NCBI RefSeq assembly: GCF_001693735.1 | Contig: NZ_LWDV01000006.1 | Coordinates: 111,443 to 175,442 of the forward strand | DNA: 64,000 bases | DNA from: Orenia metallireducens | GTDB lineage: Bacteria > Bacillota > Halanaerobiia > Halobacteroidales > Halobacteroidaceae | Reading direction: 5' to 3' | Shown here: piece by piece, positions 6,397 through 29,382 of the stretch | Numbering within the stretch: the first letter of the stretch is position 1 | Layout: each line of letters opens with the position of its first letter | Made by a program: the position numbers and the translations under genes | Notes under the pieces: model-generated | The model's database searches: none | What the model saw: the letters and a program-made list of their open reading frames with translations, nothing else | What the model was told of the DNA's origin: nothing

Positions 6397-7425
6397 TTAA
6401 TTTATATTCTCTTTTAAAGAAGTAGATTCGCGTTCTATAATCTTATAATCTATGATTTCCTTATTCTCTCTACTTTTTTCTTTAAACATATCAAATAACT
6501 TCTCACACGCCCTCCTACCCAATTCTATAGAATTTATCTCAATAGAGGTTATAGAAGGATTTGCATATTTAGCCAATATAGTATTATTAAAACTAGCTAA
6601 CATTATATCTTCTGGTACTCTGTTCTCACCTTCTTTTAATCTCTTTAGTACACCTAAAGACATTAAATCATCAGCAACTATTATCGCATCAAGGTTATCA
6701 TGCAACTCCATCAATCTAGATGTAAGGTCATAGCCACTCTTTTCAAGGAATCGATCAAATATAAAATAATCTTCCTTAAAAGTAATATTATGCTCCTTTA
6801 AGGCTTTTAGGTAACCTTTATATCTTTCTTTCATAACTACAGAATCTAACTCTCCACCTATAAAAGTTATCTTTTTTCTATCTTTTTTTATCAAAAGTGA
6901 AGTCAAGTCATAAGATGCTTGTTCATTATCATTATCCACTGAAGGTATATCATCGTACTCTAAACAACTTCCTATAAGAACAAAGGGGAATTTATTCTCT
7001 TTTAGAAATTTTATACCCTCATCCTCTTCCTTAGAACGGGTTAAAATTAATCCATCTACCCTTTTTCCTTTAATTATTCTCCTAAGAACATCTACATCAC
7101 TTTCTTCTTTGTGGTTTGTAACTATTAGAATATCAAAAAAATGTTGAGATGCTATCAGGCTTATCCCTTTTAATACTTTCTGAAAGAAAGGATTAATAAA
7201 AATATCTTCCTTATAAGAAGGCATTATCACCCCAATAGTATCAGTCTTATTATTTGCTAGACTTCTAGCTATTGTATTTGGATAATAGTTTAACTCTTCC
7301 ATTATCTTTAAGACCTTCTTTTTAGTTCTATTACTGATTCTAGAATCATTAGATATAACCCTAGACACTGTAGAGGTTGAAACACCTGCTAGCTTGGCAA
7401 CATCTTTCATCGTAATTCCTTCCAA
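6397..7425 (-). CDS. LacI-family transcriptional repressor of the importer operon
   Basis: Sugar-responsive repressor. The N-terminal LacI helix-turn-helix is MKDVAKLAGVSTSTVSRV, followed by the hinge helix (NTIARSLANNKTDTIGV) and a periplasmic-binding-protein-like effector domain of about 280 residues. The start is uncertain between a TTG with AGAGGTG six bases before it (used here) and an ATG five codons later with AAGGA before it. It lies first in the operon, so it probably represses both itself and the importer through the palindrome at 7518. Confidence 0.88.
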   Translation of the reverse strand: MEGITMKDVAKLAGVSTSTVSRVISNDSRISNRTKKKVLKIMEELNYYPNTIARSLANNKTDTIGVIMPSYKEDIFINPFFQKVLKGISLIASQHFFDILIVTNHKEESDVDVLRRIIKGKRVDGLILTRSKEEDEGIKFLKENKFPFVLIGSCLEYDDIPSVDNDNEQASYDLTSLLIKKDRKKITFIGGELDSVVMKERYKGYLKALKEHNITFKEDYFIFDRFLEKSGYDLTSRLMELHDNLDAIIVADDLMSLGVLKRLKEGENRVPEDIMLASFNNTILAKYANPSITSIEINSIELGRRACEKLFDMFKEKSRENKEIIDYKIIERESTSLKENIN

Positions 7426-13231: not shown

Positions 13232-13256
13232 AAATTAAAGTAATAATAACTTTAAC
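13232..13256 (-). terminator. Weak terminator after the fructokinase gene
   Basis: A seven-base-pair stem (TTAAAGT/ACTTTAA) overlaps the stop codon and is followed on the minus strand by TTTAACTT. It is weak but in the expected place. Confidence 0.35.
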
Positions 13257-14196
13257 CTATTAGCTCTTGAACTTGCTCTAACGTAGGTAAGGCCGACATA
13301 GCACCTTTTTGTGAAGCTGCTAGAGCTCCAGAAATACTAGCAAACTTAATAGTATTATCTAAAAATTCTTTATCTAATTCACTTATCTTCTTGTCTGTCT
13401 TATTTAAGTTATATAAGATACCTGATACAAAAGCATCCCCTGCTCCTGTTGTATCAACAGTTTCTATTTTTATTGCCTCTGTAAAGGTTAGTAGCTCATT
13501 ATAGTAATAATAGGCACCTTTACTTCCAAAGGTTACATAAATTAAAGGAATATCATACTCCTGTTTTAATATTTCAACACCTTTTTCTACATTTACTTCA
13601 CCAGTAATAAATTCTAACTCTTCTTCAGAAATCTTAAGAATATCGGCCTGATCTAACATAGAGATAATTCCTTCTTTAGCTGCTTCACTGCTTTCCCATA
13701 GATTTAGACGTAAGTTAGGATCATAAGAGATTAGCAACCCCTGCTCTTTAGCCTGTTGCACAGCATATTTAGTAGCACTACAAGCTGGCTCATGGATTAA
13801 AGAGATAGAACCAAAGTGTAAGATTTTATTCTCTTTAAATATTTCATCTTTAATTTCTTCTCTTCTCAAAAATATATCAGCACTAGGATTAATATAAAAA
13901 CTGAAACTTCTATCTCCAGCTTCATCTAAAGTAACAAAGGTCAACCCTGTTCTAGCCTGATCTGTTAAGAGCATATTATCTGTATTAACATTATTTATCT
14001 CCAAAGTATCTTTCATAAACCTACCTAATAGATCATCACCAACCTTACCTACAAAGGTCGACTCTGCTCCTAGTCTACTTAAGCCTACTGCCACATTGGC
14101 TGGTGCTCCTCCTGGACTCTTTTGAAATTTCATATTATTATCGTCTAAAGGGGTAAAGTCAATCAACGCTTCTCCTAAAGATATAATTCCTTTCAT
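13252..14196 (-). CDS. Fructokinase, PfkB family (copy in the chemoreceptor operon)
   Basis: ATP-dependent sugar kinase, most likely fructose to fructose-6-phosphate. It begins with GEALIDF, has the PfkB first signature around GGAPANVAVGLSRLG, and the second signature DTTGAGDAF with the catalytic aspartate near residue 255. At 314 residues it is full length. It follows the chemoreceptor gene by 15 bases with AGAGGTG in the gap, so the two are co-transcribed. The kinase at 28185 is roughly three-quarters identical by eye. The neighbouring ABC importer suggests that the imported sugar is fructose or a related ketose, but that is inference. Confidence 0.9.
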   Translation of the reverse strand: MKGIISLGEALIDFTPLDDNNMKFQKSPGGAPANVAVGLSRLGAESTFVGKVGDDLLGRFMKDTLEINNVNTDNMLLTDQARTGLTFVTLDEAGDRSFSFYINPSADIFLRREEIKDEIFKENKILHFGSISLIHEPACSATKYAVQQAKEQGLLISYDPNLRLNLWESSEAAKEGIISMLDQADILKISEEELEFITGEVNVEKGVEILKQEYDIPLIYVTFGSKGAYYYYNELLTFTEAIKIETVDTTGAGDAFVSGILYNLNKTDKKISELDKEFLDNTIKFASISGALAASQKGAMSALPTLEQVQELIG

Positions 14197-14211
14197 TTAT
14201 ATTTCACCTCT

Positions 14212-15822
14212 TTATCTCTTCTTTAATTTTTGGTTGGCAACTATTATATTATTTATCAGTTTTAACTGTTCTTGATATTGAATACTCTGACTATCAATAC
14301 TTGCAAGCAGATCATCATTTAAATTAATTAACTCTTCCATTGTATCCTCTAACTGATTAGTTCTAGCTAAAGTAGACTCTATTTGAGCAGATACCTTACC
14401 ACTACTAGCAGCAATCTCTTGGGTTACCCTATTTATCTGCTTAGTAGAATCTAGTTGCTCTTTAGCAGAACCAATTACCTTACCCATCTTAGTAACCACC
14501 CCTCTTGAGAGGTTATTGATTTCTGAAAAGATATTAATAATACTCATACTATCATTTTCATCTATCATATTAATAATTGCCTGCTGAGATACCTCATCAA
14601 TCTCTTTGATAATACTTTTAACCGAGTTGGTAGCAAGCAAACTCTCATCTGCTAAAATTTTAATTTCATCTGCTACCACAGCAAAGCCCTTACCGTTTTC
14701 CCCTGATCTCGCTGCCTCTATCGATGCATTTAATGCTAATAAATTGGTTTGATCAGTAATCCCCCTAATCTTATCAGATATTTTATCTATCTTAGCAAGA
14801 CTTAATTTAAGTTTTTCCATAATATCAACTGTTTCATAAATTATCTTATTTGCTAAGGTAATTTGATCATCAGCTTCTTCAATAGACTCATATGTCAGCT
14901 GAGCAGCCTCTAAAATCTCCTCAGCTTGAGTATTTAAGGATTTAGCTCCTATTGATACCTCATTAATAGAGCTTGATATCTGAGAAATTGTAAAGAAGAC
15001 TTCTTTATCTGCCTTAATTGAATTTTTAATAATTTGAAAGCTATGATTAATTGTCTGATCAACATTATCTGCTCTATCCTTCATCTTTTGAGCAGAACTA
15101 TTTATCTTATCACCTCTAATAGCAGCCTGAAATGTCTTCTCTTTTATATCATCTGTAACATTAGTAATTCTTTTATTGGATAATATTACCAAAAGAAGAG
15201 ATACCAATAAGCTTATAGTAGTTATAACTATAGCTCTCTTTCTGATGTTAAGAGCACTATCTACAACACTACTCATATTCCTATTCAACTCATCCCAATT
15301 CTCTCTTACAAGAGATGAGTTTTTCTGATTAAATTTAGATATTATTCCTGTTAGCTCTGAAAACAACAGCCTTCTCTCTATGCCATCAACTTCTGACTTT
15401 GATAACTTATTGATTTTATCATCTATTTCAGCAGCTAGATCATCAATCTGATCTAACTCTTTTAAAATAGAATCCTCAGTATTATGCTTTCTAATAGAGT
15501 CTATATCTTTGGAGATGATATCTCCAGTCTCTTTTAAATTAAATATACCTGCCTGCCAACCATATACATTCTTCTCTCTTCTTAACATATTTCTAGTTAT
15601 TCTTTCATTAGACTGAACAACTGGAATTATATTTTTGTCTAAATTTTCAATCTTATTTAAGATTTGATTAGTATTTTCTAAGATTATCATTGCAGCTATC
15701 AATAAAATTATAAATAATCCATAAAATCCCCACTGTATTTGTTTAGCAATAGTTATTCTAGATAATAGCTCTTTAAGTTTACTAAAATATGAGCTGTGGT
15801 TCTCTTTTGAGATAAAGATAAT
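14212..15822 (-). CDS. Methyl-accepting chemotaxis protein with apparent ATT start
   Basis: Membrane chemoreceptor feeding CheA/CheW. The first helix ([17 protein letters not shown]) is intact only if translation starts well upstream of the first in-frame TTG, which lies inside that helix. Forty codons upstream, AAGGAGG stands seven bases before an in-frame ATT, and no ATG, GTG or TTG fits between. From that ATT the order is a 27-residue cytoplasmic tail, helix 1, about 145 residues of periplasmic helical sensor, helix 2 ([17 protein letters not shown]), no recognisable HAMP, then the signalling hairpin with the conserved tip [17 protein letters not shown]. It is followed by fructokinase in one operon and lies next to a sugar importer, so a sugar ligand is likely. 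Confidence 0.85.
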
Positions 15823-15991: not shown

Positions 15992-16990
15992 CTATTTTCT
16001 CTTTACAACTCCTGATCTAACAAATACAGCACCTACAATAACTGCCCCTTTTACTACTAGCTGTAGATACGGAGATACATTCAATAGATTCAATCCATTA
16101 TTGATCATTCCGATAATAAAGGCACCAATAAGGGTTCCTATAATTGTACCTCTACCACCCATAATATCAGTTCCTCCAACTACTGTAGCAGCAATGGCAT
16201 CCAATTCCCATCCTTCACCTGCTAGAGGTTGCCCAGAACCTAAGCGAGCAGCTAAGATCAAACCAGCAATTGCTGACATAAATCCTGTAATCATATATAT
16301 CTTCATTTTGATTGCTTTGACACTGATTCCTGAAAGCCTAACTGTCTCTTCATTATCCCCAAGAGCACATACATGGCGACCAAATTTGGTCTTATTTAAT
16401 ACTACACTAGCCACAGCTAAAATAAGAACCATAATCCAAACTGGTACTGGAATTGCTCCTAAATAGCCTCTACCAATAAACTTAAAGCCAGCTGATAATC
16501 CAGCAATGGGACTCCCACCAGTATATAATAAGGCAGCTCCTCTAGCCATTGACATAGTACCTAAGGTCACAATAATTGGTGGTATCTTAGTATTAGAGAT
16601 TACTAAACCATTAAAAACACCAAAAGAGGTTCCTAAAGCCAAACCTAAAATACTGGCCAATACTGGTGACATCCCTGAATTTACAATAAATCCTGCAATT
16701 AATGTTCCTGTAAAGGCTACAATAGAACCAACTGATAGATCAATTCCACCTGTTAAGATTACAAAAGTCATACCAGTTGCAATAATAGCATTTAAAGAGA
16801 CTTGGCGTGCCAAGTTAATCATATTTCTAGATGTGAAAAAATAAGGACTAGCAATCGATAAGGCAATAGATAATAAGATTAAACCGATAACTGCATATAT
16901 CTCAGGCTTATAATAACTATTATTAATTTTTTCGAAGAAGCTATTCTTTTTATCAGATGAACTGATTTTTTGAGTTAATTCTAAATCCAT
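15992..16990 (-). CDS. Sugar ABC importer permease, RbsC/CUT2 type
   Basis: Inner-membrane permease of a ribose/fructose/galactose-type importer. About eight to ten helices; the family motif ILTGGIDLSVGSIVAFTGTL lies near residue 78, and AIAATVVGGTDIMGGRGTIIG near 265 forms the ATPase-docking region. Length 332 is normal. It lies one base after the ATPase gene stop, indicating tight coupling. It works with the binding protein and ATPase upstream. The pseudo-ATPase domain on the neighbouring sensor kinase could in principle dock here. Confidence 0.93.
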   Translation of the reverse strand: MDLELTQKISSSDKKNSFFEKINNSYYKPEIYAVIGLILLSIALSIASPYFFTSRNMINLARQVSLNAIIATGMTFVILTGGIDLSVGSIVAFTGTLIAGFIVNSGMSPVLASILGLALGTSFGVFNGLVISNTKIPPIIVTLGTMSMARGAALLYTGGSPIAGLSAGFKFIGRGYLGAIPVPVWIMVLILAVASVVLNKTKFGRHVCALGDNEETVRLSGISVKAIKMKIYMITGFMSAIAGLILAARLGSGQPLAGEGWELDAIAATVVGGTDIMGGRGTIIGTLIGAFIIGMINNGLNLLNVSPYLQLVVKGAVIVGAVFVRSGVVKRK

Positions 16991-16991
16991 C

Positions 16992-18482
16992 TTAACCTAC
17001 CTCCCCAGCAGCACTCTTCATGATTTTTTCTTGACTCAACTCTGTACGATCATAAACACTACTAATTCTACCTTTATGCATGACTAAGACTCTATCACTC
17101 ATCCCAATAATCTCTGGCAGCTCAGAAGAGATCATAATAATTGATTTTCCTTGCTCAGTCAATTTATTCATCAATTCATAAATCTCATACTTAGCCCCAA
17201 CATCAATACCTCTAGTTGGTTCATCAAAGATTAGGATATTGGAGTTGGTAAACATCCACTTAGCCAAGACGACCTTTTGCTGATTACCACCACTTAAGTT
17301 TCTAGCTAGCATCTCTTGAGAAGGTGTCTTAACCCCTAAGCTTTTAATATACTTCTGTACTTCTCTTCTCTCTTGCCCATTATCAATCAGTATCTTTTTA
17401 GTTATCTTGTCTATCTTAGCTAGGGTGATATTATTCTTAATCGATTGACCTAAGACAACCCCTTGCTGCTTTCTATCCTCTGGTAGCAGACCAATCCCAT
17501 GATCAATACTATCCTTAGGAGACTCTACATTAATCAATTTATCATTAAGATAGATCTCCCCTGTATCCTTAGGATCAGCACCATATAAAGCTCTAACCAG
17601 TTCTGTCCTTCCAGCCCCTACCAAGCCTGCAACTCCTAAAATTTCACCTTTGTGTAAAGAGAAGTTAATATCCTTTAAGACCCCTTCACTAGACAGATTC
17701 TTAACCTCTAATACCTTTTCTCCTGGAGTTACTGTTCTTGGTGGATAACTATTGGTCAAATCCCTGCCAACCATCCAACGAATAATCTGATCTTTGTCAA
17801 TCTTATCTACATCATCAGTAGCTACATGCTCCCCATCACGCAGCACCGTTACCCTATCTCCAATCTCAATCAATTCATCTAGATGATGGGAGATATAGAT
17901 AATAGAAACACCTTTCATCTTTAAGTCATAAATAACTGCAAATAAACGTTCTAACTCTTTAGGTGTTAAAGTTGCTGAAGGCTCATCCATCACAATCAAT
18001 TTGGCTCCAAAAGAGAGTGCTTTAGCAATTTCAACAAACTGTTGTTCAGCAACACTCAACTTATTAACCAAAGCCTTAGGGCTAACCTCTACCCCTAATT
18101 TATCTAATATCTCTTGAGTATTGGCATGCATCTTCTCTTTATCAATCATTCCAAATTTATTAAGTGGTTCTCTACCCATAAATATATTCTCAGCTACACT
18201 CAATACAGAAGCCAGATTAAACTCTTGATAAATTATGCTAATCCCTTCTTGCTGTACCTGTAAAGTACTACTTGTATCTAATGGCTTCCCATTGAATAGT
18301 ATCTCACCTGAATCTCTTTGATAAGCACCTGAAAGAATCTTCATTAATGTAGATTTTCCTGCTCCATTCTCCCCAATCAAACAGTGGATTTCTCCTCTAT
18401 AAATTTCTAGACTAACACTCTTTAGTGCTCTAACACCAAAGAAAGACTTATTGATATTCTTCATCTCTAAAATATTATCCAT
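16992..18482 (-). CDS. Sugar ABC importer ATPase, RbsA/MglA type
   Basis: Tandem nucleotide-binding protein that powers the importer. The first domain has Walker A GENGAGKST, signature LSVAEQQ, Walker B LIVMDEPSAT and switch ISHH. The second has the usual weak Walker A GLVGAGRTE, with signature LSGGNQQ and Walker B ILIFDEPTRG. Such a weak second site is normal for this family. The start is the ATG with AGAGGGG eight bases before it; the GTG three codons earlier overlaps that site. It is the only intact ATPase of the sugar module and gives a direct comparison for the degenerate domain in the sensor kinase. Confidence 0.95.
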   Translation of the reverse strand: MDNILEMKNINKSFFGVRALKSVSLEIYRGEIHCLIGENGAGKSTLMKILSGAYQRDSGEILFNGKPLDTSSTLQVQQEGISIIYQEFNLASVLSVAENIFMGREPLNKFGMIDKEKMHANTQEILDKLGVEVSPKALVNKLSVAEQQFVEIAKALSFGAKLIVMDEPSATLTPKELERLFAVIYDLKMKGVSIIYISHHLDELIEIGDRVTVLRDGEHVATDDVDKIDKDQIIRWMVGRDLTNSYPPRTVTPGEKVLEVKNLSSEGVLKDINFSLHKGEILGVAGLVGAGRTELVRALYGADPKDTGEIYLNDKLINVESPKDSIDHGIGLLPEDRKQQGVVLGQSIKNNITLAKIDKITKKILIDNGQERREVQKYIKSLGVKTPSQEMLARNLSGGNQQKVVLAKWMFTNSNILIFDEPTRGIDVGAKYEIYELMNKLTEQGKSIIMISSELPEIIGMSDRVLVMHKGRISSVYDRTELSQEKIMKSAAGEVG

Positions 18483-18520
18483 AATAGGCACCCCTCTATT
18501 AGAGTTTAAATCTAATAATT

Positions 18521-18560: not shown

Positions 18561-19547
18561 TTACCAACTAAAGCTAGCAGCATTCTCACTAGTGATTAAT
18601 TTTACTGGCACAGGCAATTCATCAGGAACTTCCTTACCATCTAGTAACATTAATCCATATTCAACACCTAATCTTCCAATCTTGGCAGGCTCTTGAGCAG
18701 CAGTTGCAGCCATACCCATTCCAGTTTCATTATTAGCAATTGCTTTAACAGCATTTGGAGCACCATCTACACCCATTACAAAGAATTCATCGGCACGCCC
18801 AGCAGATTGAGCAGCAGCTACTACACCTAAAGCACTTGGGTCATTGATAGCAAATACAGCATCAATTTCTGGTTGAGCCTGTAAGATATTCTCCATAACT
18901 TCCATTGAATCAGCTTTCTTACCATTACCATTCTGTTCTGCAACAACTTCAATTCCCGGATATTTCTTAATAGTTTCCATAAATCCATTATATCTATTTC
19001 TTACAGCAGATACAGGGTTACCATTGATAACAACAACCTTTCCTTTCCCATTCAAACGTTCATTAACATATTCAGCATTAATCACACCAGCTTTATAGTT
19101 ATTAGATGCGATAAAGATATCACGATTACCAATAGAGTCACCATCAACACAGACAACTGGAATTCCAGCCTCTTTAGCAGCAGCAACAATACTTTCTGAT
19201 GCTTCATAATCAACAGGATTTAATAATAATAACTCAATACCTTGAACGATCATATCCTCAACATCAGCCAATTGTTTTGCAGCATCATGCTGACCATTAG
19301 AAACAAGTAAAGTTCCATTTAAATTACCCTCTACCTCTTCTCTAACAGCATCCTCCATAGCTTTAAAGAATGGATTATCAGTGGTCATAAACGTAATTCC
19401 AACCTTGATTCCTTCATGAGGTTTACCAGTTGTATTCGCCTCTTGTTTATCATCTCCACCAAAGATCCACCATGCACCTACATTTACTGTTAAAGCAAAG
19501 ACTAAAGCAATTGCTAAGGTTAATATCATTCCTCTTTTATTAAACAT
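18561..19547 (-). CDS. Sugar ABC importer periplasmic binding protein, RbsB type
   Basis: Periplasmic sugar-binding protein (Peripla_BP_4 fold) of the CUT2 importer. It has a signal sequence (ILTLAIALVFALTVNVGA) without a lipobox and a conserved start of the mature fold (GVTF-like motif KVGITFMTTDNPFFKA). It also shows VDGDSIGNRDIFIASNN and the late ligand-loop motif AVFAINDPSALGVVAA. A free periplasmic form fits a two-membrane Firmicute. It is the first gene of the operon, behind a roughly 900-base leader region with an ANTAR-type element. By position it could also present ligand to the chemoreceptor. Confidence 0.93.
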   Translation of the reverse strand: MFNKRGMILTLAIALVFALTVNVGAWWIFGGDDKQEANTTGKPHEGIKVGITFMTTDNPFFKAMEDAVREEVEGNLNGTLLVSNGQHDAAKQLADVEDMIVQGIELLLLNPVDYEASESIVAAAKEAGIPVVCVDGDSIGNRDIFIASNNYKAGVINAEYVNERLNGKGKVVVINGNPVSAVRNRYNGFMETIKKYPGIEVVAEQNGNGKKADSMEVMENILQAQPEIDAVFAINDPSALGVVAAAQSAGRADEFFVMGVDGAPNAVKAIANNETGMGMAATAAQEPAKIGRLGVEYGLMLLDGKEVPDELPVPVKLITSENAASFSW

Positions 19548-19611: not shown

Positions 19612-19695
19612 GATGGGGCTGCTGCCCCATCCTTATAATAAGAGCCCTTATAGAAGAATCAAAGTTATTGGCTCTGATCAACTTATGATTATTTT
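19612..19695 (-). promoter_or_regulatory. Leader structural unit A (proximal copy)
   Basis: In the RNA, AGAGCC pairs across about 23 bases with GGCTCT, then TTATTATAA, then a second stem (GATGGGGC/GCCCCATC, four-base loop). The binding-protein ribosome site GGGGGG follows about 55 bases later. It is one of two related units in this leader. No matching known riboswitch was recognised. Confidence 0.5.
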
Positions 19696-19774
19696 AATCT
19701 AATAAAATAATCGCTTATAATAATTATTAAATTAACCTATTTTAACTATCCCCCTTTCATTTAATCTCTTTTTA

Positions 19775-19859
19775 AAGGGCTTTAGCCCTCAATTTATAAT
19801 AAGAGTCCTTATTAAAGTAATTAAACTTATGACTCTAATTATCTAAAGCTGATTATTTT
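19775..19859 (-). promoter_or_regulatory. Leader structural unit B (distal copy)
   Basis: It has the same order as unit A: AAATAATCA, a stem AGAGTC/GACTCT, the shared TTATTATAA, then a stem around AGGGCTAAAGCCCT. Twenty bases later comes AAAGGGGG resembling a ribosome site, but no start codon follows, as if the leader and the first bases of a gene had been duplicated. Between units A and B lie about 80 AT-rich bases. Confidence 0.5.
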
Positions 19860-19862
19860 AAA

Positions 19863-19920
19863 TATAATAGCCCATTTATATCAAAATCTTTGGTGATTTT
19901 GATATAAATGGGCTATTATA
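19863..19920. terminator. Large palindrome in the importer leader
   Basis: A stem of about 25 base pairs (outer arms TATAATAGCCCATTTATATC) with a short loop lies between the ANTAR terminator and unit B. It has no strong T-run on either strand. It may be a second weak terminator or an RNA processing site. Confidence 0.45.
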
Positions 19921-20059: not shown

Positions 20060-20256
20060 TAAATAAAAATAGGTGCCCCATACATGCATACATAATTTAA
20101 CGTATACATATATGGGGCACCCATAACCCCTGTAATCTACACCAGCCATAGGTATAGAATCTATATTTTAAATTGTCCATTTATATTCTCTTAAAATAAT
20201 TTTCTTCATACCGACCATGAGTATAAAGAAAAAGTTCTAACTCTCTCTCACTCGAC
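20060..20256 (-). promoter_or_regulatory. ANTAR-type two-hairpin leader with terminator
   Basis: Read on the minus strand. Hairpin 1 (20228-20204) has a nine-base-pair stem with one bulge and the loop AUGGUC. Hairpin 2 (20158-20136) has an eight-base-pair stem and the loop AUGGCU. Both loops have A at position 1 and G at position 4, the ANTAR-recognition pattern. Fourteen bases later a stem GGTGCCCCATA/TATGGGGCACC is followed by TATTTTTATTT, an intrinsic terminator. The element lies between the ANTAR regulator gene and the importer it presumably controls. The linker between the hairpins is about 45 bases, longer than usual, and holds an extra small stem. Overlap between hairpin 2 and the terminator, seen in eut-type elements, is not evident. 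Confidence 0.8.
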
Positions 20257-20262
20257 AAATTC

Positions 20263-20291
20263 ATTATATACTCTCATGCCAAAACAATCAA
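20263..20291 (-). promoter_or_regulatory. Promoter of the ANTAR leader and importer operon
   Basis: TTGATT and TATAAT are separated by 17 bases on the minus strand. The expected start of transcription near 20256 lies 28 bases before hairpin 1, so a transcript stopped at the terminator would be about 195 bases. Confidence 0.75.
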
Positions 20292-20443
20292 GTTCAATCA
20301 AATTCAATCTCAAACAATTATATAGTTTTAACTTCATTATCCTCTGTAAATCTCACCTTTACTTAATTTTGGTTTTTATTAACTGATAATTAACTTTCTA
20401 GAATTATACTGACAATTTACTCTAAGCAGATCAACAAAACCCC

Positions 20444-21031
20444 CTATACATTAAACAGACTATCTGCTTTGATTATCTCTTTAGCTAAGTCTATCATCTT
20501 CTTATTATTATTCCTACTCATCTGCTGTAATTCTTTCATCGCCTCTGCTTCTTTCAATCCTTTTCTATCCATTAAAATCCCCTTTGCCCTCTCGATATAC
20601 TTACGATTCTCTAAGGAGAGTTTAGTATCCTTTAGTTCACTTTCTAACCTCTTAAATTCCTTATATCGAGACATTGCCACCTTGATAGCAGCACTTAAAT
20701 CATTAGCATCAACAGGCTTTACTAAATAGCCAAAAATATCTTCAACACTAGCCTTCTCTATTAACTCTTGATCATGATAGCCACTGACTATTATACTAGG
20801 AATAAATATCTTATTATTAATCCTTCTAATTGCCTCAATCCCATCGACAGAGGGCATATTAATATCCATAATAATTAAATCAGGTCTTTTATCTAAAGCC
20901 AATTTGACCGCTTCTTCGCCATCAGTTGCCTCTCCAACTACTTCATAACCCAGCCCTTCTAAATTGGCTTTTAGCCCCATCAAACATAAATACTCATCTT
21001 CTGCTACTAAAATCTTTAATGGTTCTTGCAT
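20444..21031 (-). CDS. Response regulator with ANTAR RNA-binding output domain
   Basis: Cytoplasmic regulator of the EutV/AmiR-like class. The receiver domain (residues 6-120) has acidic residues EDE, phospho-acceptor LIIMDINMP, the SGYHD threonine/serine position and lysine in LVKP. The ANTAR domain (about 140-190) has the diagnostic RKYIERAKGILMDRKG, EAEAMKELQQMS and the following helix. ANTAR proteins bind paired RNA hairpins and prevent termination. An AGGGGGG site precedes the ATG. The sensor kinase with a HisKA_2 domain lies directly upstream on the same strand, the usual partner type. A target-like RNA lies 190 bases downstream. Confidence 0.95.
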   Translation of the reverse strand: MQEPLKILVAEDEYLCLMGLKANLEGLGYEVVGEATDGEEAVKLALDKRPDLIIMDINMPSVDGIEAIRRINNKIFIPSIIVSGYHDQELIEKASVEDIFGYLVKPVDANDLSAAIKVAMSRYKEFKRLESELKDTKLSLENRKYIERAKGILMDRKGLKEAEAMKELQQMSRNNNKKMIDLAKEIIKADSLFNV

Positions 21032-21141
21032 AAGAGATCCCCCCTCATAAATAATAAATTGAAGATATGTCTTTAATATAATTTTATAACTTATGTCATT
21101 AGAATATTTGATAAAATATAATGATATTAAGACAGTAACCG

Positions 21142-23034
21142 CTAACTTCCTAATGAGATACTTTTAATTGGCAATTTTATTATCACCTTAGTGCCTTGCT
21201 CTAGATTAGAGAATTTAACCTCTCCTTTAAATTCATTTCTAATTATAGAATCAACTGTCGATAATCCCAAACTATTCAGCTTAGCTAAATTAAAGTCTTG
21301 AGGTATACCTACTCCATTATCTTTAATTACTAATAATATTACTTCTTCTAGGCGTTTACATTTAATCTCAAGAGTACCATCCCCCCCATTAGGAAAGGCG
21401 TGTTCCACAGAGTTACTAACCAATTCATTGACGATTAGAGCAATCGAAGATGCCTTATTATAAGCAATAAAGATATCATCCAGCTCTAGATTGACCTCAA
21501 CCTTCTTATCTAAATTGATAAATCTTACAATAATTTTAATTAAAGTCTTAAGATTTGTAATACTTCTACCGAATTTATCTTTAGATAAGATATCATGTAC
21601 AGTAGCTATACTTTTAATCCGTAAGATAATATTATCCAAAATATCATCGATGGACTTATCTGAGTTCTTACTAATAAAAATCTTCTGTAAAGATATTAAA
21701 TTAACTATAGCTTGGAGGTTATTCTTAATCCGATGGTGGCTCTCTTGTAGTAAAGCAGACCTTCCCATTAATCTAGTATCTTCAATAGCCAAGGCAGCTT
21801 GCCGAGCAAAAGCCGATAAATATTTAGCCTCCTCTTCAGAATGTAAATAAAAACCTTCATAAAAGATCTGAATAATTCCTGAAACATGAGACCTAATCAG
21901 AAGTGGAATACAGATAATTGTTCTTACCTTATTGATCTTTTTAAATAGAGAATAAAATTCCTTATCATTAGCATTAGAATAATAAAAATTATCCTCTTTA
22001 GAGATATTTAAAATAGATTTTTTCTTTAATGTAGCTTCTAAATCCTTCTTCAGTTTAAATTCCAAACTATCTATTACTGTACCAGTATTCTCATCAATTA
22101 AATTTATAATACAACCATCGGCATTCATCACCTTACTTACCTCTTTAGCTAGTAATAAGAGCACATCTTTTAATTCATACTCAGAGGTCAAAAACTCAGC
22201 TGCTTTAAAGACAGCATCTAAGATTTCTCGCTCATCGCTTGAGCTAGACTCAGCCTCTCTGTAATTATAATCAACTAACATATTCAAGAGTTTCTGTGGA
22301 GATTTTTTCGCTTCTGCAGCCGATAAAGTTCCTTTAATTCTAGAGTTAGCTAAGATTGAGATTCTATCAGAAATCTTTAAAGCCTCTTCCCAGCTTTTAG
22401 TGATATAAAGGATGCTTCCACCAGACTTTTTATAATTATGTATAATTTCATAGACTTTAGAAGTTGATTCAGAGCCTAGCTTATCGGTCATCTCATTTAT
22501 AATAATTACTTCTGGCTCTTTCAAAAAAACTTTAGCAATAGCTACCAGCTTCTTCTCCTCAGTAGATAGAGTACTTACTTTGGCTTTATGATCTAAGCCA
22601 AAGTTGAAGCTTGTTAAAATATCTTTAGCTCGTTTATTGACCTCCTTCCAGTCGATAAAGTTAAACCACCTTTTAGTTGGATACTTTAAGTCAAAGAGGT
22701 TTTCCGCTATAGAAAAGGAGTTGGTAAGAGGAAATCTCTTTAATAGGAATCCTATTTCAGATAGCTTCTGCTTATGCTCCTCACTTATTACCTTACCTTT
22801 AAAATTTAATTCTCCTTCAACCTCTTCTAATGGAAGTTCAGCAAATATCTCTGCTAAAGATTCTCCTCTAAGGTAAGTAGCAAGGGTCTTAATAAAGAGC
22901 TCACTGATCGACTCATTTTCCACTACTAAACTATGGACCTCTCCATAATTTAAATCTAAATTTATATTCTCGATGCTATAACCTTCTGAATTACTAGAGG
23001 ATAAATTATTAATCTTAAGAATACTTCTATTCAC
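21142..23034 (-). CDS. Sensor histidine kinase fused to a degenerate ABC-ATPase domain
   Basis: Cytosolic, with no membrane helix. Residues 1-245 follow the first nucleotide-binding domain of RbsA: ILKINNLSS, VENESISELFIKTL at the Walker A place, SIAENLFDL after the Q-loop place, LSTEEKKLVAIAK at the signature, EVIIINEMTDKL at Walker B and ILYITKSWEEA at the switch. Walker A is lost, the Walker B Asp is Asn, and the switch His is Lys. A GAF domain (about 260-420) follows, then HisKA_2 with ESHHRIKNNLQAIVNLISLQ, then a HATPase_c domain (NELVSNSVEHAF, DNGVGIP). The GTG start has AGAGGTGG about nine bases before it; a TTG upstream would add 17 unlikely residues. It is upstream of the ANTAR regulator. 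Confidence 0.9.
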   Translation of the reverse strand: MNRSILKINNLSSSNSEGYSIENINLDLNYGEVHSLVVENESISELFIKTLATYLRGESLAEIFAELPLEEVEGELNFKGKVISEEHKQKLSEIGFLLKRFPLTNSFSIAENLFDLKYPTKRWFNFIDWKEVNKRAKDILTSFNFGLDHKAKVSTLSTEEKKLVAIAKVFLKEPEVIIINEMTDKLGSESTSKVYEIIHNYKKSGGSILYITKSWEEALKISDRISILANSRIKGTLSAAEAKKSPQKLLNMLVDYNYREAESSSSDEREILDAVFKAAEFLTSEYELKDVLLLLAKEVSKVMNADGCIINLIDENTGTVIDSLEFKLKKDLEATLKKKSILNISKEDNFYYSNANDKEFYSLFKKINKVRTIICIPLLIRSHVSGIIQIFYEGFYLHSEEEAKYLSAFARQAALAIEDTRLMGRSALLQESHHRIKNNLQAIVNLISLQKIFISKNSDKSIDDILDNIILRIKSIATVHDILSKDKFGRSITNLKTLIKIIVRFINLDKKVEVNLELDDIFIAYNKASSIALIVNELVSNSVEHAFPNGGDGTLEIKCKRLEEVILLVIKDNGVGIPQDFNLAKLNSLGLSTVDSIIRNEFKGEVKFSNLEQGTKVIIKLPIKSISLGS

Positions 23035-23067: not shown

Positions 23068-23350
23068 GATAATATAGTCAGCCAACTTTAGAATAAACTC
23101 TAAATTAAGGTTAAGTTGGATGACAGTGGATAGGAAAAATTCGTTTGGGTATTTTTTCCCTTCAAGTTTGAAGTTAAACTCTCCGTGATTATAAAGTTTC
23201 TCAAAAATATGAAACTTTATTTCTCCTCACGAAGAGTCTATAAGACTCGTAGGAAGTAACAAGTGATGAGTAACAAATTAGAATCCAAAACATAAAAATA
23301 CTATAAGTTTCACTTTGGACTTGGATATCTATAACATTATAAAACTATAA
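23068..23350. repeat. Inverted-end repeat, copy 5 (diverged)
   Basis: It lies in the 610-base gap before the sensor kinase. Its left flank (CCAACTTTAGAAT) and right flank (ATAAGTTTCACTTTGGA, then TTGGATATCTATAA) match the outer flanks of the copy at 35829, though the inner ends have decayed. The core holds a palindrome CACGAAGAGTCTATAAGACTC and an AGTAACAAGTGATGAG half-unit. The remaining 270 bases to the terminator are AT-rich with no gene. Confidence 0.45.
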
Positions 23351-23696: not shown

Positions 23697-25178
23697 TCAG
23701 CTAAGCTTCCACTTCTGAATTTTATTAATGAGCACTTTAGCACCTTGAGCAAAAAATTTAATCCTCTTACTATCTTGATCTGGATAGATTCTACTGGAGA
23801 ATACTTCTTGACCATCATTAACAAACATCTCTATAGAAGACTTATCGATAAAGAAGTGTAATTTGAGCCTATCTCGATTCTCTATAAAACAATGGCGTAC
23901 TCCCCCTCCCCCTAATCCAGCCTTGTTTCTATCAAAGGATAAGAGCTTATCTTTTGCCCTATACTTAATTACTGTCTCTTCCTTTCCATCAGCAGAACAC
24001 CTTAGCTTAATACCAAATTCTTCTGCATCTTCCACTTCAAATTCAACAATCAATTCAAGCACATCACCTGAAATTCCCTCTAATTCTAATTCCTGATTGT
24101 TAACCTCAATATCTCTATATTCTAGATAATCTCTCCGTAACTTCTTTAGCTCTTCAACTGGTCTTTGAATCAATCTGTTCTCAGCATTTAATCTTAATTC
24201 TCGTGGGATAGTCATACAGTGAATCCAACCCTGATCCCTTTCAGCATAGTTTTGATCCTCTTCAGGTAATCCCATCCAAGCAATCATAATTCTTCTACCT
24301 TTATTATCTAAGGTGGTCTGAGCAGCATAAAAATCAAAGCCTCTATCTAGCTCTCTAAACTCACCATGGTTCATCCTGCCAGTCTTATAATTCAACTTAC
24401 CTACTAGGTATCCTGCTTGATAGATATTATTATAAAGGTGACCCTGAGGCTCTAATCCCTGTGGTAAAGCAATCAGAACATCCTTGCCATTTAACTCAAA
24501 TAAGTCAGGACATTCCCACATATAACCAAAATCATCAAGATTATTGAGGTTACTTCCAGCCACCTCTCCCACTAAATCCCACTCTTTTAAGTCCATAGAT
24601 TTATATAAGAGGACTCTTCCTTCTAACTTAGTAGTCTGGGTACCAATTACCATATACCAAATTCCATCTTTTTGCCAGACTTTAGGGTCTCTAAAATGCC
24701 TTGTATATCCTTTAGGTTGATTTTCAATTACCGGTCCTAGCTTTTGAAAGTCGACTCCATCCTCTGTTATTGCTAAACATTGATAGGTCTCTCTATTATC
24801 CCATTCATCCTTGACATTACCAGTATAGATAAAGGTCAGAGTACCATCATTATCAACTGCACTTCCTGAATAACAGCCATGGGTTTCATACCATTGACTT
24901 GGAGTAAGAGCTATCGGTAACTCTTCCCAATTTACTAGATCCTCACTCTTATAATGCCCCCAATAGAGCAGCTTATCTGCTGGATAGACTGGATTGAATT
25001 GATAACATAAGTGATACTCCCCATCAAACTGGATAAATCCATTGGGATCATTTAACCAACCTACTGGAGCCATTAAATGATACTTCAACCTATAATAATC
25101 TTTTGCTACTTTCTCTCTATTCTCTTCAATAATTTGATTAGCCTTAGCTAATAGCTTCTCTTTCTTATCTTTACTCAT
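23697..25178 (-). CDS. scrB: Sucrose-6-phosphate hydrolase, GH32
   Basis: Cytoplasmic enzyme that splits sucrose-6-phosphate from the PTS into glucose-6-phosphate and fructose. The GH32 nucleophile motif is WLNDPNG near residue 41. FRDPKV near 162 supplies the transition-state Asp, and MWECPD near 220 supplies the acid/base Glu. A C-terminal beta-sandwich (about 350-493) includes the FFIDKSSIEMFVNDGQE segment. Length 493 is normal. It is the last gene of the operon after scrA, separated by about 250 bases that hold a repeat. The fructose it releases would be used by the fructokinase at the head of the same operon. Confidence 0.95.
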   Translation of the reverse strand: MSKDKKEKLLAKANQIIEENREKVAKDYYRLKYHLMAPVGWLNDPNGFIQFDGEYHLCYQFNPVYPADKLLYWGHYKSEDLVNWEELPIALTPSQWYETHGCYSGSAVDNDGTLTFIYTGNVKDEWDNRETYQCLAITEDGVDFQKLGPVIENQPKGYTRHFRDPKVWQKDGIWYMVIGTQTTKLEGRVLLYKSMDLKEWDLVGEVAGSNLNNLDDFGYMWECPDLFELNGKDVLIALPQGLEPQGHLYNNIYQAGYLVGKLNYKTGRMNHGEFRELDRGFDFYAAQTTLDNKGRRIMIAWMGLPEEDQNYAERDQGWIHCMTIPRELRLNAENRLIQRPVEELKKLRRDYLEYRDIEVNNQELELEGISGDVLELIVEFEVEDAEEFGIKLRCSADGKEETVIKYRAKDKLLSFDRNKAGLGGGGVRHCFIENRDRLKLHFFIDKSSIEMFVNDGQEVFSSRIYPDQDSKRIKFFAQGAKVLINKIQKWKLS

Positions 25179-25195
25179 ATTTCCACCTCTCTATC

Positions 25196-25275
25196 ATCAA
25201 TAATTAGTAACGAGTGATAAGTGATTAGTAAGCAACTTAACTATTAACCTACTCCTCATCATTCATTACTGTAGC
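25196..25275. repeat. AGTAAC-type palindromic element between scrA and scrB
   Basis: An imperfect hairpin with one arm built on AGTAACGAGTGATAAGTGA and the other on CTCCTCATCATTCATTAC. The same core occurs at 10838, 37035 and 58976. It lies inside the sucrose operon, after the scrA terminator-like hairpin. Confidence 0.45.
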
Positions 25276-25392
25276 AATATACTTATTAACTTTAATTCTA
25301 AAATTAAAATTCATTATCACTTGAGCTTAAAGCCAAAATTAAGCAGATTAACTTAATTCCATCCTCAAACTCAAATTCTTAACTTAAATGAT

Positions 25393-25416
25393 AAAGAAGG
25401 GGAAATCCCCTTCTTT
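25393..25416 (-). terminator. Hairpin after scrA
   Basis: A ten-base-pair stem (AAAGAAGGGG/CCCCTTCTTT) with a four-base loop lies nine bases after the scrA stop. scrB has no obvious promoter of its own, so this probably gives partial termination. Confidence 0.65.
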
Positions 25417-25424
25417 AAGTTAAA

Positions 25425-26795
25425 TTATTTTTCATCATTAAATCCTATTACCCAAGTTCCAATGAAAGCTCCACCAAAGGCAATAGCAAATCCGATTAAA
25501 TAGTTAACCAAGTCTCCTTGACCCACAATACTAATAGCTGGAATAGCAGTTAATCCCAATCCAGCAAAGCCTACTTTAGTAAGCACTACATAAGCTCCAC
25601 CCAAAGCACCACCAATAGCCGCTGCAATAAATGGTTTAACGAATCTTAAGTTAATACCAAAGATAGCAGCCTCAGTAATTCCTAACAAGCAGGATGTTGC
25701 AGCAGGTAAAGCAATTGACTTAATTTTAGTACTCTCAGATTTAAAATAAACAGCTAAAGCAGCTCCACCTTGAGCAATATTGGCCATTGACCAGATTGGC
25801 AATAAGAAGTTAATTCCAATCTCTTTATTGGCTAATAAACCAGCTTCGATAGCATGGAAACTGTGGTGAATTCCAGTAATTACAATTGAAGAATATACCC
25901 CACCAAAAATTAGTCCAGCTAAAGGACCAGCTACATCATAAATACCCATTAATGACATAGAGATACCATCACCTATTAATCTCATAGCAGGACCAATTGC
26001 AGCTAAAGAAACAAGTCCAGTAACTAAAATAGTTACAAATGGAGTTACAATAATATCTAAAGCATTAGGTACAACCTTTCTTAAACTTCTTTCAACATAT
26101 CCCATAAACCATACAGCAACTAAGATCGGTAATACAGTACCTTGATAACCAACCATACCAACATTCATACCAAGCACATCAATAGTTTTCTCTATACCGC
26201 CACCTAAAGTCCAAGCATTCTGCAAGGCCGGGTGAATCATAATTCCACCTAACGTAGCAGCCAAGTATGGATTAGCATCAAATTGTTTAGCAGCACTAAA
26301 AGCAATTATTACTGGTAAGAAAATAAATGCTGCATTAGAGAACATATCTAACAGAGTAATTAATCCACTACCTGCGTCTACCCAACCATACGTCTTCATC
26401 ATACCTAACAGACCCATTGATAATCCAGTAGCGACAATCGCAGGAATAATCGGAACAAAAATATTAGATAACAATCTAGCAAAACGTTGAATTGGATTTA
26501 AATTTTTCATTGCAGCTTTTTTAGCTTCACCAGTACTTACCTCAGAAACCCCACCTTCTTTAGTCAACTCTGCATAAACCTTATTTACTGCACCCTGACC
26601 AATAATGATCTGAAACTGCCCTGAATTAATAAAAGCTCCTTTTACTGCAGAGATACTCTCTACCTTATCTTTATCAGCCTTATCATTATCTTTTAATACT
26701 AAACGTAATCTTGTAGCACAATGTGCTGCACTATCAATGTTCTCTTCTCCACCAATAGCTTCTAAAATCTGTTTTGCTATCTCACTATAGTTCAT
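25425..26795 (-). CDS. scrA: Sucrose-specific PTS enzyme IIBC
   Basis: Membrane permease that takes up and phosphorylates sucrose. The IIB domain (residues 1-85) holds the phosphorylated cysteine in HCATRLRLVL, and GAFINSGQFQIIIGQGAV is typical of the glucose-sucrose family. The IIC domain (about 105-456) has about ten helices and the motif TGIHHSFHAIEAGL. No IIA domain is attached, so IIA is supplied by another protein, as is usual for sucrose systems. Context with ScrB, ScrK and a LacI-type regulator supports sucrose over trehalose or beta-glucosides. Confidence 0.93.
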   Translation of the reverse strand: MNYSEIAKQILEAIGGEENIDSAAHCATRLRLVLKDNDKADKDKVESISAVKGAFINSGQFQIIIGQGAVNKVYAELTKEGGVSEVSTGEAKKAAMKNLNPIQRFARLLSNIFVPIIPAIVATGLSMGLLGMMKTYGWVDAGSGLITLLDMFSNAAFIFLPVIIAFSAAKQFDANPYLAATLGGIMIHPALQNAWTLGGGIEKTIDVLGMNVGMVGYQGTVLPILVAVWFMGYVERSLRKVVPNALDIIVTPFVTILVTGLVSLAAIGPAMRLIGDGISMSLMGIYDVAGPLAGLIFGGVYSSIVITGIHHSFHAIEAGLLANKEIGINFLLPIWSMANIAQGGAALAVYFKSESTKIKSIALPAATSCLLGITEAAIFGINLRFVKPFIAAAIGGALGGAYVVLTKVGFAGLGLTAIPAISIVGQGDLVNYLIGFAIAFGGAFIGTWVIGFNDEK

Positions 26796-26928
26796 TTTTT
26801 CTCCTCCTTAGTTAATTCTGTTTTTTTTAATATTAAAAACAACTAAAAATAATAGATAAGAGGAGCTTATAAACTTATATGTTAACCATAACTTATATAA
26901 CATCATTCTTATTATCTCCTCTTTTTAA

Positions 26929-26942
26929 TGAAAGCATTCAAA
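26929..26942. promoter_or_regulatory. Possible CcpA (cre) site before scrA
   Basis: TGAAAGCATTCAAA is an imperfect palindrome near the cre pattern, upstream of scrA. The central CG of good cre sites is missing, so confidence is low. Confidence 0.3.
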
Positions 26943-27040
26943 CAATTACAAAATAATAAAAACTTATATAAGTTATAATCTTATGCAAATTTATAATTTT
27001 AGGAACATCCCCAAAGTTGAAGTTATCTTAGAACAGGTTT

Positions 27041-27054
27041 TGGGAACGTTCCCA
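27041..27054. promoter_or_regulatory. ScrR operator before scrA
   Basis: TGGGAACGTTCCCA is a perfect 14-base palindrome with a central CG, in the 290-base gap between scrR and scrA. The same half-site recurs before scrR. A weaker third copy (AGGAACATCCCC) lies about 35 bases closer to scrA. Confidence 0.8.
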
Positions 27055-27083
27055 GAATTCTAAAAAATATAAGTATAATATAC

Positions 27084-28091
27084 TTATATTTTTTTTACAC
27101 TCTTTCTCTCTACTATATGATAATCTATCAGTAATCTACCTTTAAATTTATCTCCATTGATATACTTTAACAAAATCTTAGAAGCTTCTTCTCCAGCCTT
27201 AAGATGATCATAATCAATGGTAGTCAACTCTGGAGTAATCCAAGAACTTATATCAGAGTTACCAATTCCTACTACAGATATATCTTCTGGAACTTGATAG
27301 CCTTGCTCCTTAAGATATTTAATAGCTCCAATGGCTAAACTATCAGTTACTGCAAATACTGCTGTTGGCAGCTGTTGAGAACTCTCAATTATCTTCTTCA
27401 TCCCCTCATAGCCCGAGCTAATAGAGAAGTCACCTTTATAGAGATATTCTTCTGGTACTTCAAGGCTATTCTCTCTTAAAGCCTCTTTATAACCCTTCTT
27501 TCTTAACTGTCCAACCGCTACATCATACTCTTGAACACCGATATAAGCAATTTGCTGATGCCCATGCTTGATTAGATATTTAACTATATCCTTAGCTGAA
27601 TTAAAGTCATCGTGAATTACACATGGGAAATCAATAACTTCACTGATATCTTGACCTAATACCACTACTGGTAAATTAATCTTACTTAAGGTCTCAAGGT
27701 GCTTTAGTGTAACTTCAGTAGCAAAGAATAGAATTCCACTTACCCTTTTCTCCTTTAATAACTCTAAATATTTAATCTCTTCTTCAGTATCCAATCTAGT
27801 GTTTGTCAATAGAAGATTGTAACCATTATCATACATAATATTACTTATGCCTTCTACTGCTGAAGAGATAGTACTTGTATTAATCCTAGGTACTATAACT
27901 CCAATACTATTGGTACTATTTTTCTTTAAATCCTTTGCTATAGAGTTAGGAATATATCCTGTTTCTTCTATTACCTGCTGAACCTTCTTTCTAGCTTTAT
28001 CACTAACATGTTCTGCATCATTAATCACTCTTGAAACAGTAGATTTAGAAACACCAGCTAGTTTAGCTATCTCTTTAATAGTTAGCCCCAT
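27084..28091 (-). CDS. scrR: LacI-family repressor of sucrose genes
   Basis: DNA-binding repressor released by a sugar such as fructose or fructose phosphate. The helix-turn-helix is TIKEIAKLAGVSKSTVSRV, followed by the hinge (NSIAKDLKKNSTNSIGV) and an effector domain. I place the start at the ATG giving MGLTIKEIAKLAG, with AAGAGG nine bases before it. A TTG 12 codons earlier would translate through the operator sequence and is unlikely. It lies between scrK and scrA, with matching operators on both sides, which implies autoregulation. Confidence 0.92.
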   Translation of the reverse strand: MGLTIKEIAKLAGVSKSTVSRVINDAEHVSDKARKKVQQVIEETGYIPNSIAKDLKKNSTNSIGVIVPRINTSTISSAVEGISNIMYDNGYNLLLTNTRLDTEEEIKYLELLKEKRVSGILFFATEVTLKHLETLSKINLPVVVLGQDISEVIDFPCVIHDDFNSAKDIVKYLIKHGHQQIAYIGVQEYDVAVGQLRKKGYKEALRENSLEVPEEYLYKGDFSISSGYEGMKKIIESSQQLPTAVFAVTDSLAIGAIKYLKEQGYQVPEDISVVGIGNSDISSWITPELTTIDYDHLKAGEEASKILLKYINGDKFKGRLLIDYHIVERKSVKKI

Positions 28092-28111
28092 ATCATTAAA
28101 CCTCTTTTCGT

Positions 28112-28127
28112 TTGGGAACGATCCCAA
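28112..28127. promoter_or_regulatory. ScrR operator before scrR
   Basis: TTGGGAACGATCCCAA is a 16-base near-perfect palindrome that shares the TGGGAACG half-site with the operator at 27041. It lies about 20 bases before the scrR start, where bound protein would block initiation or elongation from scrK. Confidence 0.8.
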
Positions 28128-28184
28128 AACTTCTTATAAAAATTATACCTCAAATTAATTTAAAAGTCAACATTTCAAACAAAA

Positions 28185-29129
28185 TTATTTTAATCTCTCT
28201 TTAACTTGCTCCAAGGTAGGTAGAGCCGACATAGCCCCTTTTTGTGAAGCTGCTAAAGCTCCAGAGATACTAGCAAATCTAGTAGTACTATTTAAAAATT
28301 CCTTGTCCAATTCACTTATCTCTTTATCTGTTTTATTCAAATTATATAAAATTCCTGAGACAAAAGCATCGCCTGCTCCTGTAGTATCCACAGTCTCTAC
28401 TTTAATAGCAGGTACAAATTCTAATTCATCTTTGTAGTAATAATAAGACCCTTTACTACCAAAGGTAACATAAATTAATGGAATATTATATTCTTCTTTT
28501 AATTGCTTAACTCCAAACTCCACATCATCCCTTCCAGTAATGAACTCTAACTCTTCATCAGAAATCTTAAGTATATCAGCCTCACCTAACATAGAAACAA
28601 TACCTGCTTTTGCACTTTCTGCATCAGCCCAGAGATTTAACCTTAGGTTAGGGTCATAAGATATTATCATCCTATTCTCTTTAGCCTGTTGCACAGCATA
28701 TTTAGTAGCACTTCGTGCAGGTTCATGAATTAAAGATATAGAACCAAAGTGTAAAATCTTATGCTCTTTAAATATCTCAGGGTCAATATCATCTTGGCTC
28801 AAGAAAGTATCAGCACTAGGGTTGATATAAAAGCTAAAGCTCCTCTCACCACTCTTATCTAAAGTCACAAAGACTAGACCTGTTCTAGCTTCATCAGTCA
28901 AAAGCATAGAGTCAGTATTGACACCCTTCTCATCTAAAGTCTCTTTTAGAAAATCACCTAATACATCATTTCCTACCTTACCCACAAAGGTTGCTTTTGC
29001 TCCTAATTTGCTAAGACCTACTGCCACATTGGCTGGAGCTCCCCCTGGATTCTTCTTAAAACTCATATTATTTTCATCCAAAGGTATAAAATCAATCAAT
29101 GCCTCTCCTAATGTTATAATCCCTTTCAT
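28185..29129 (-). CDS. scrK: Fructokinase, PfkB family (sucrose operon)
   Basis: Phosphorylates the fructose released by ScrB to fructose-6-phosphate. GEALIDF opens the fold, GGAPANVAVGLSKLG is the first signature region and DTTGAGDAF the second. At 314 residues it matches the paralogue at 13252 in length and in most residues, including an identical SGILYNLNKTDK stretch and a nearly identical C-terminus. The start is the ATG with AGAGGTG six bases before it. It is first in the sucrose operon and is followed by scrR. Confidence 0.93.
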   Translation of the reverse strand: MKGIITLGEALIDFIPLDENNMSFKKNPGGAPANVAVGLSKLGAKATFVGKVGNDVLGDFLKETLDEKGVNTDSMLLTDEARTGLVFVTLDKSGERSFSFYINPSADTFLSQDDIDPEIFKEHKILHFGSISLIHEPARSATKYAVQQAKENRMIISYDPNLRLNLWADAESAKAGIVSMLGEADILKISDEELEFITGRDDVEFGVKQLKEEYNIPLIYVTFGSKGSYYYYKDELEFVPAIKVETVDTTGAGDAFVSGILYNLNKTDKEISELDKEFLNSTTRFASISGALAASQKGAMSALPTLEQVKERLK

Positions 29130-29382
29130 TGAATACACCTCTTTTTATCATATTTTTTATAGTTTATCCACCTGTTGTTAGTGGTATTACTAAATTCAGT
29201 AATGGATAAAAATATAGAAGCTAGAAAAAGATTAAATTATAATTTAATCTATAATTAACTTAGAAAGTTCCTCTTTTCCTAGCTAATGACTCCTTAGCAT
29301 TAACACCCCGTTTAAAAGACATATGTTTTGGCAACTATTATATAGATTAGATTAATCTTTGTCAAATTTATCTCTAAAAAAG

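Follow-up and report, generated by a model that had tools for sequence, protein, structure and literature searches.

A histidine kinase with a decayed sugar-importer ATPase domain, its ANTAR partner and a CUT2 importer operon in Orenia metallireducens

Examination of a 64,000-nucleotide stretch of the Orenia metallireducens genome (contig NZ_LWDV01000006.1, positions 111,443 to 175,442; hereafter the window) revealed, on its minus strand and in this order, a sensor histidine kinase gene, a receiver-ANTAR gene, a structured leader and the importer genes rbsB, rbsA and rbsC. In window coordinates, the features are:

21142-23034, minus strand: sensor histidine kinase, 630 amino acids, GTG start (open reading frame and Pfam)
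22270-23034, minus strand: CUT2/RbsA-like pseudo-NBD, kinase residues 1-255 (Pfam ABC_tran, NCBIfam, fold comparison)
21781-22173, minus strand: GAF domain, kinase residues 288-418 (Pfam GAF_3, 3.7e-9)
21553-21744, minus strand: HisKA_2 phospho-acceptor domain, kinase residues 431-494 (Pfam, 3.1e-12)
21163-21450, minus strand: HATPase_c domain, kinase residues 529-624 (Pfam, 2.2e-12)
20444-21031, minus strand: receiver-ANTAR response regulator (Pfam Response_reg 8.9e-26, ANTAR 3.5e-18)
20263-20291, minus strand: sigma-70-type promoter-like site, TTGATT-17-TATAAT (consensus match only)
20204-20228, minus strand: extra P1-type hairpin, loop CAUGGUC (leader folding and comparison)
20136-20158, minus strand: P1 hairpin, loop UAUGGCU (covariation)
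20114-20130, minus strand: P2 hairpin, loop UAUGGGU, mutually exclusive with the terminator (covariation, folding)
20072-20124, minus strand: intrinsic terminator, 20061-20124 with its U tract (folding)
18561-19547, minus strand: rbsB, RbsB-like sugar-binding protein (Pfam/NCBIfam)
16992-18491, minus strand: rbsA, RbsA-like double ATPase (Pfam/NCBIfam)
15992-16990, minus strand: rbsC, RbsC-like permease (Pfam/NCBIfam)

The kinase gene may alternatively start upstream, at a TTG at 23085. The rbsBAC genes form one operon of the CUT2 type (binding protein, fused double ATPase and BPD_transp_2 permease), and about 525 nt separate the terminator from rbsB. Both this importer and the receiver-ANTAR protein agree with a first-pass annotation of the window made from the sequence and its open reading frames. 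That annotation had also placed a promoter, two AUGG-loop hairpins and a terminator in the leader; the promoter-like site and the terminator stand, but the hairpins number three. Genes for a methyl-accepting chemotaxis protein and for a fructokinase follow downstream of rbsC (13252-15702), and a sucrose-6-phosphate hydrolase, a sucrose PTS, a LacI-type regulator and a second fructokinase lie upstream of the kinase (23697-29138), neighbours hinting that the importer carries fructose or a related sugar.

The four kinase domains each exceeded their Pfam cut-offs, and the best NCBIfam matches of the N-terminus were the CUT2 ATPases YtfR/AlsA/XylG/RbsA, which bears out the proposed joining of an RbsA-like domain to GAF, HisKA_2 and HATPase_c. 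The HisKA_2 and HATPase_c core is complete, with the HHRIKNNLQ box of HisKA_2 invariant among the aligned kinases, and homologues within the genus show 95% and 73% identity. A hydropathy search for membrane segments in 18 kinases found none in any of them, the top 19-residue value being 1.78 in the kinase against 2.6-3.0 in RbsC. In the AlphaFold model, whose pLDDT averages 77 overall and is higher in the N-domain, residues 3-255 are predicted to form a complete NBD (Z 24.2, rmsd 2.5, 230 residues matched).

Every catalytic ABC motif had been described as altered. Indeed, Walker A reads VENESISEL in the window, its intact form being lost, the Q-loop Gln is a Lys, Walker B reads IINEM with Asp replaced by Asn, and the switch His is a Lys; the catalytic Glu, however, is retained, and the signature, LSTEEKK in the kinase, is also non-canonical in NBD1 of RbsA itself (LSVAEQQ). 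Comparison of the kinase NBDs with the linked RbsA NBD1s gave consensus matches of 0.43 for Walker A, 0.39 for the Q-loop, 0.17 for the Walker B Asp, 0.06 for the switch His and 1.00 for the catalytic Glu, which, present in all 18 kinases compared, is the sole catalytic feature kept throughout. The segment following the Q-loop, LSVAENIF, matched at 0.62 in the kinases and 0.68 in RbsA, and the remainder of the domain at 0.26 and 0.61, respectively. In ABC importers, this segment lines the groove that receives the coupling helix of the permease. The kinase NBDs also possess newly conserved residues, such as Trp215.

Walker A is intact in seven relatives (L046, L047, L048, L049, L054, L159 and L160). 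L054 is canonical in Walker A, Q-loop, Walker B and switch His. In L159 and L160, Walker A and the Asp of Walker B persist, but the switch His is gone, as is the Q-loop Gln in L159. Most Halanaerobiia kinases retain the P-loop Lys, with the Asp of Walker B replaced by His, Asn or Tyr and the switch His by Lys or a similar residue. Walker A is absent from the window's genus, Bacillaceae and gut Clostridia, where the system and its CUT2 linkage are still present. As read from these motifs, catalytic decay is graded rather than a family-wide death, and the family would offer a naturally graded set of ABC domains on the way from motor to adaptor, with motifs that range from almost intact to completely decayed. 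In a tree including the linked RbsA NBD1 and NBD2, the kinase NBDs formed one group beside the CUT2 NBDs (support 85), which suggests that they descend from one CUT2-related lineage through a single fusion event. In the NBD tree, the kinases of the window's genus, itself within the Halanaerobiia, cluster with those of Bacillaceae (support 93); no such affinity is clear for the RbsA of the genus, a hint that the sensor part was transferred horizontally.

The fusion kinase was found in 13 of the 59 genomes of the window's class and in 8 of 398 genomes sampled evenly over the phylum. Carriers include Halanaerobium congolense, Halalkalibacter, Mesobacillus, Gracilibacillus and Fredinandcohnia, as well as Christensenella, Claveliimonas, Faecalicatena and Butyricicoccus. 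The first-pass annotation had proposed looking in other genomes for linkage of such fusions to CUT2 importers and ANTAR regulators, its absence being one of the results that would speak against the idea, and a count of neighbours by BLAST against the window proteins, in 32 kinase loci from Halanaerobiia, Bacilli and Clostridia, found this linkage. A regulator that matches the ANTAR protein of the window adjoins the kinase in 30 of the 32, the others being L066, at a contig end, and L045, whose kinase is truncated and runs into what remains of an rbsA. Of the 30 loci that could be evaluated, 29 have CUT2 importer genes within the flanking sequence retrieved (L047 and L066, at contig edges, were left out; the flank of L076 contained none). 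Most Halanaerobiia, Halalkalibacter and L059 have the order kinase, ANTAR gene, importer. In Mesobacillus, Gracilibacillus and Fredinandcohnia the ANTAR gene and the importer form a unit from which the kinase gene diverges, in gut Clostridia the ANTAR gene precedes the kinase, and in Christensenella the importer comes first, with the RNA element in front of it and apart from the ANTAR gene. Since several different orders occur, the linkage is, on the evidence of the gene maps, more than shared gene order.

Genome G030 has three kinase loci, two of them intact and each provided with its own ANTAR gene and importer. In the third (L045, 10184-11488), the kinase is truncated in HisKA_2 and joined to a fragment of rbsA NBD2, followed by dehydrogenase-like sequence; these are the remains, left by a deletion, of an earlier kinase-importer locus. 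The kinase gene of genome G016 (L042, 8066-9919) contains one in-frame TAG between its parts, which may reflect a pseudogene, a sequencing error or read-through.

The leaders repeat the same plan across loci: hairpins P1 and P2, separated by a short linker and followed by a terminator. In 19 leaders, 92% of P1/P2 pairs were standard against 75.7 in shuffles, 43 pair cells were changed on both sides against 12.0, and the covariation score was 0.62 against 0.28, all slid registers collapsing. The hairpin loops are 7 nt long (N-A-N-G-R-N-N), with an invariant A and, two bases on, an invariant G. A covariance model trained on nine leaders, eight of them from Halanaerobiia and one from a different class, recovered the held-out leaders L055, L056, L058, L060 and L062 from Bacilli and L059, L064 and L099 from Clostridia, L064 and L099 weakly (E 0.15-0.21); 733 kb of control loci gave two weak matches. 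Shuffles and control loci together rule out a chance origin of the motif. An Rfam scan of the window gave no match.

A scan of the window's genome with the model yielded one strong site, the rbsB leader (E 1.9e-8). A second site (E 0.05) was rejected as a target, as it lies antisense inside an alpha-amylase-like coding gene. The 5' arm of the terminator takes up the 3' arm of P2 in 23 of 23 folded leaders, and in the window the P2 loop as well, making hairpin and terminator mutually exclusive. With a folding energy of -41.6 kcal/mol in the window against -7.3 for P2 alone, the terminator is far more stable, so that the default state would be to stop. The receiver-ANTAR gene is the only ANTAR gene of the genome. 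Together, the sole ANTAR gene, its sole convincing RNA target, the covarying hairpins, the overlapping terminators and the conserved linkage lend strong support to control of the importer at the RNA level by the kinase/ANTAR pair, as had been suggested, and we consider ANTAR antitermination of the importer highly probable.

In L059, another pair of hairpins of the ANTAR type precedes the kinase gene (6872-6918), suggesting kinase autoregulation in that locus. In a Caldilineae genome, a match to the RNA model (L123, 7177-7221, 23.8 bits) near a GAF-HisKA_2 kinase may represent another ANTAR target.

Control by an ANTAR two-component pair is known from EutW/EutV of Enterococcus faecalis (PMC3369931, PMC8934654). 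The window system resembles it in combining a histidine kinase with a receiver-ANTAR regulator, and in the paired hairpins of the target-operon leader, with conserved loop A and G, the second hairpin overlapping an intrinsic terminator. In contrast to EutW/EutV, the input here is a CUT2-derived ABC domain with a GAF domain and the target a sugar importer; unlike the A1/G4 hexaloops of EutV targets, the loops are of the seven-nucleotide type described above, hexaloop position 4 being G in the window and most loci and A in some. Actinobacterial ANTAR-target RNAs have been associated with genes for ABC and sugar transporters (PMC8164766), a likeness in association with sugar transport; in the passages covered, only few of these RNAs stand upstream of a terminator, unlike the leaders described here, and a kinase with a transporter-derived domain was not found. 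The BceAB-BceS system, in which the transporter serves as sensor for the kinase (PMC7828314, PMC10314905), is similar in function only, that is, in the proposed role of the transporter and in a kinase devoid of its own extracellular sensing domain. BceS is a membrane kinase without an ABC domain whereas the window kinase is soluble and has one, BceAB is an antimicrobial-peptide resistance transporter, and the Bce response regulator activates a promoter rather than acting by antitermination. The CUT2 importers RbsABC, XylFGH and AlsABC represent the source family of both the pseudo-NBD and the regulated operon, but unlike CUT2 ATPases the kinase has a single NBD, decayed in its catalytic motifs and fused to signalling domains. 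The first-pass annotation knew of no transporter-derived ATPase as the input of an ANTAR pathway; likewise, the open-access literature searched described neither an ABC-domain kinase nor a CUT2-ANTAR system, which is weak evidence of absence. It is thus the input domain, and not the ANTAR control, for which no description was found.

Outside the window's genus, the linked binding proteins share only 14-38% identity with that of the window, and the other linked operons variously encode an alcohol dehydrogenase with an FGGY kinase, transketolase halves, glycyl-radical enzymes, DUF5107 proteins or an AnmK-like kinase. Such diversity of binding proteins and catabolic genes makes a fixed sugar ligand for the kinase unlikely; with a conserved kinase standing beside importers of different substrates, the simplest reading is that it senses the importer rather than a single sugar. 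We propose, with a confidence marginally above even, a cytoplasmic two-component system by which a CUT2 importer controls its own expression through docking and ANTAR antitermination. The kinase would contact the importer through its RbsA-derived domain, likeliest in the RbsC groove that accepts the RbsA ATPase domains, the two pseudo-NBDs of a kinase dimer being offered to the permease dimer. Sugar-loaded RbsB or transport would alter RbsC, and the change would be relayed through GAF to the HisKA_2/HATPase core. As in the known families, the kinase would then phosphorylate the neighbouring receiver-ANTAR protein, which would dimerise and, as the sequence supports, bind P1/P2 in the rbsB leader; with P2 held, the overlapping terminator would be blocked and RNA polymerase would read into rbsBAC.

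Whether it displaced the true ATPase or sat alongside it, a pseudo-ATPase docked on the CUT2 permease would make RbsB and the permease the transmembrane sugar receptor of the ANTAR switch and the kinase one adaptor for varied importers across Bacillota. Such docking is to us an evenly balanced proposition. It is favoured by the missing membrane segment, the full NBD fold, the lineage beside CUT2 NBDs, the diverse substrates, the loss of the nucleotide site in some lineages and the near-RbsA conservation of LSVAENIF. That segment may, however, be kept for purely structural reasons, and the catalytic Glu in 18 of 18 kinases with an intact Walker A in several relatives suits a nucleotide role. 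Locus L076, with its flank devoid of CUT2 genes, likewise counts against the proposal. A search of solved structures with RbsC gave no match at E 0.001. A mirror-tree analysis of 18 loci, in which the divergence of the NBD followed that of the permease more than the kinase core accounts for (r 0.32, p 0.0006; GAF 0.08), was discounted as support for docking, since the contrast disappeared (0.33 against 0.40) in the 14 loci remaining after the four most distant were left out.

GAF domains often bind small ligands, and among the homologues mean identity is higher for the GAF domain (0.42) than for the NBD (0.32), as might be expected if it sensed an intracellular metabolite of sugar catabolism, with a vestigial or structural ABC domain and the same output arm. 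We hold this rather unlikely: despite motif loss, an NBD-alignable region persists in all full-length homologues, its fold is complete in the model of the window kinase, and the catabolic genes and binding proteins linked to the kinases are highly varied. Shared ancestry with CUT2 NBDs would also suit an ABC domain that heterodimerises with an RbsA domain or competes with RbsA for RbsC, thereby sensing RbsA occupancy or damping transport, and the partial correlation of the NBD with the RbsA domains (0.39 and 0.45) is at least that with RbsC. That correlation is not robust, and the decayed elements, Walker A and signature, are those of the ATP sandwich, so that such a partnership appears distinctly improbable. 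Least probable, at a slim chance, is a nucleotide or energy-charge sensor, in which ATP bound without effective hydrolysis gates the kinase: the universal Glu and the seven relatives with intact Walker A would fit, but the system and its linkage persist in lineages that have lost Walker A.

If the docking proposal is true, a kinase that borrows the motor domain of the importer would have made a receptor of the transporter with no need of a membrane sensor of its own, and sugar-importer genes of Bacillota would be placed under ANTAR antitermination. The Bacillaceae carriers make the system testable in genetically easy hosts.

The region between the ANTAR terminator and rbsB (19613-19916) contains further structures. 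A second strong hairpin, of 20 bp, lies at 19867-19916, and two tandem modules, at 19802-19836 and 19641-19675, have covarying 6-bp stems (AGAGUC/GACUCU and AGAGCC/GGCUCU). A search of the genome with one module returned these two as the only clear copies, and Rfam gave no match. Counterpart stems occur in the leader of L041 (AGGGCC/GGGCUCU and AGAAUC/GAUUCU), and in both the window and L041 the modules present a conserved loop followed by a GC hairpin.
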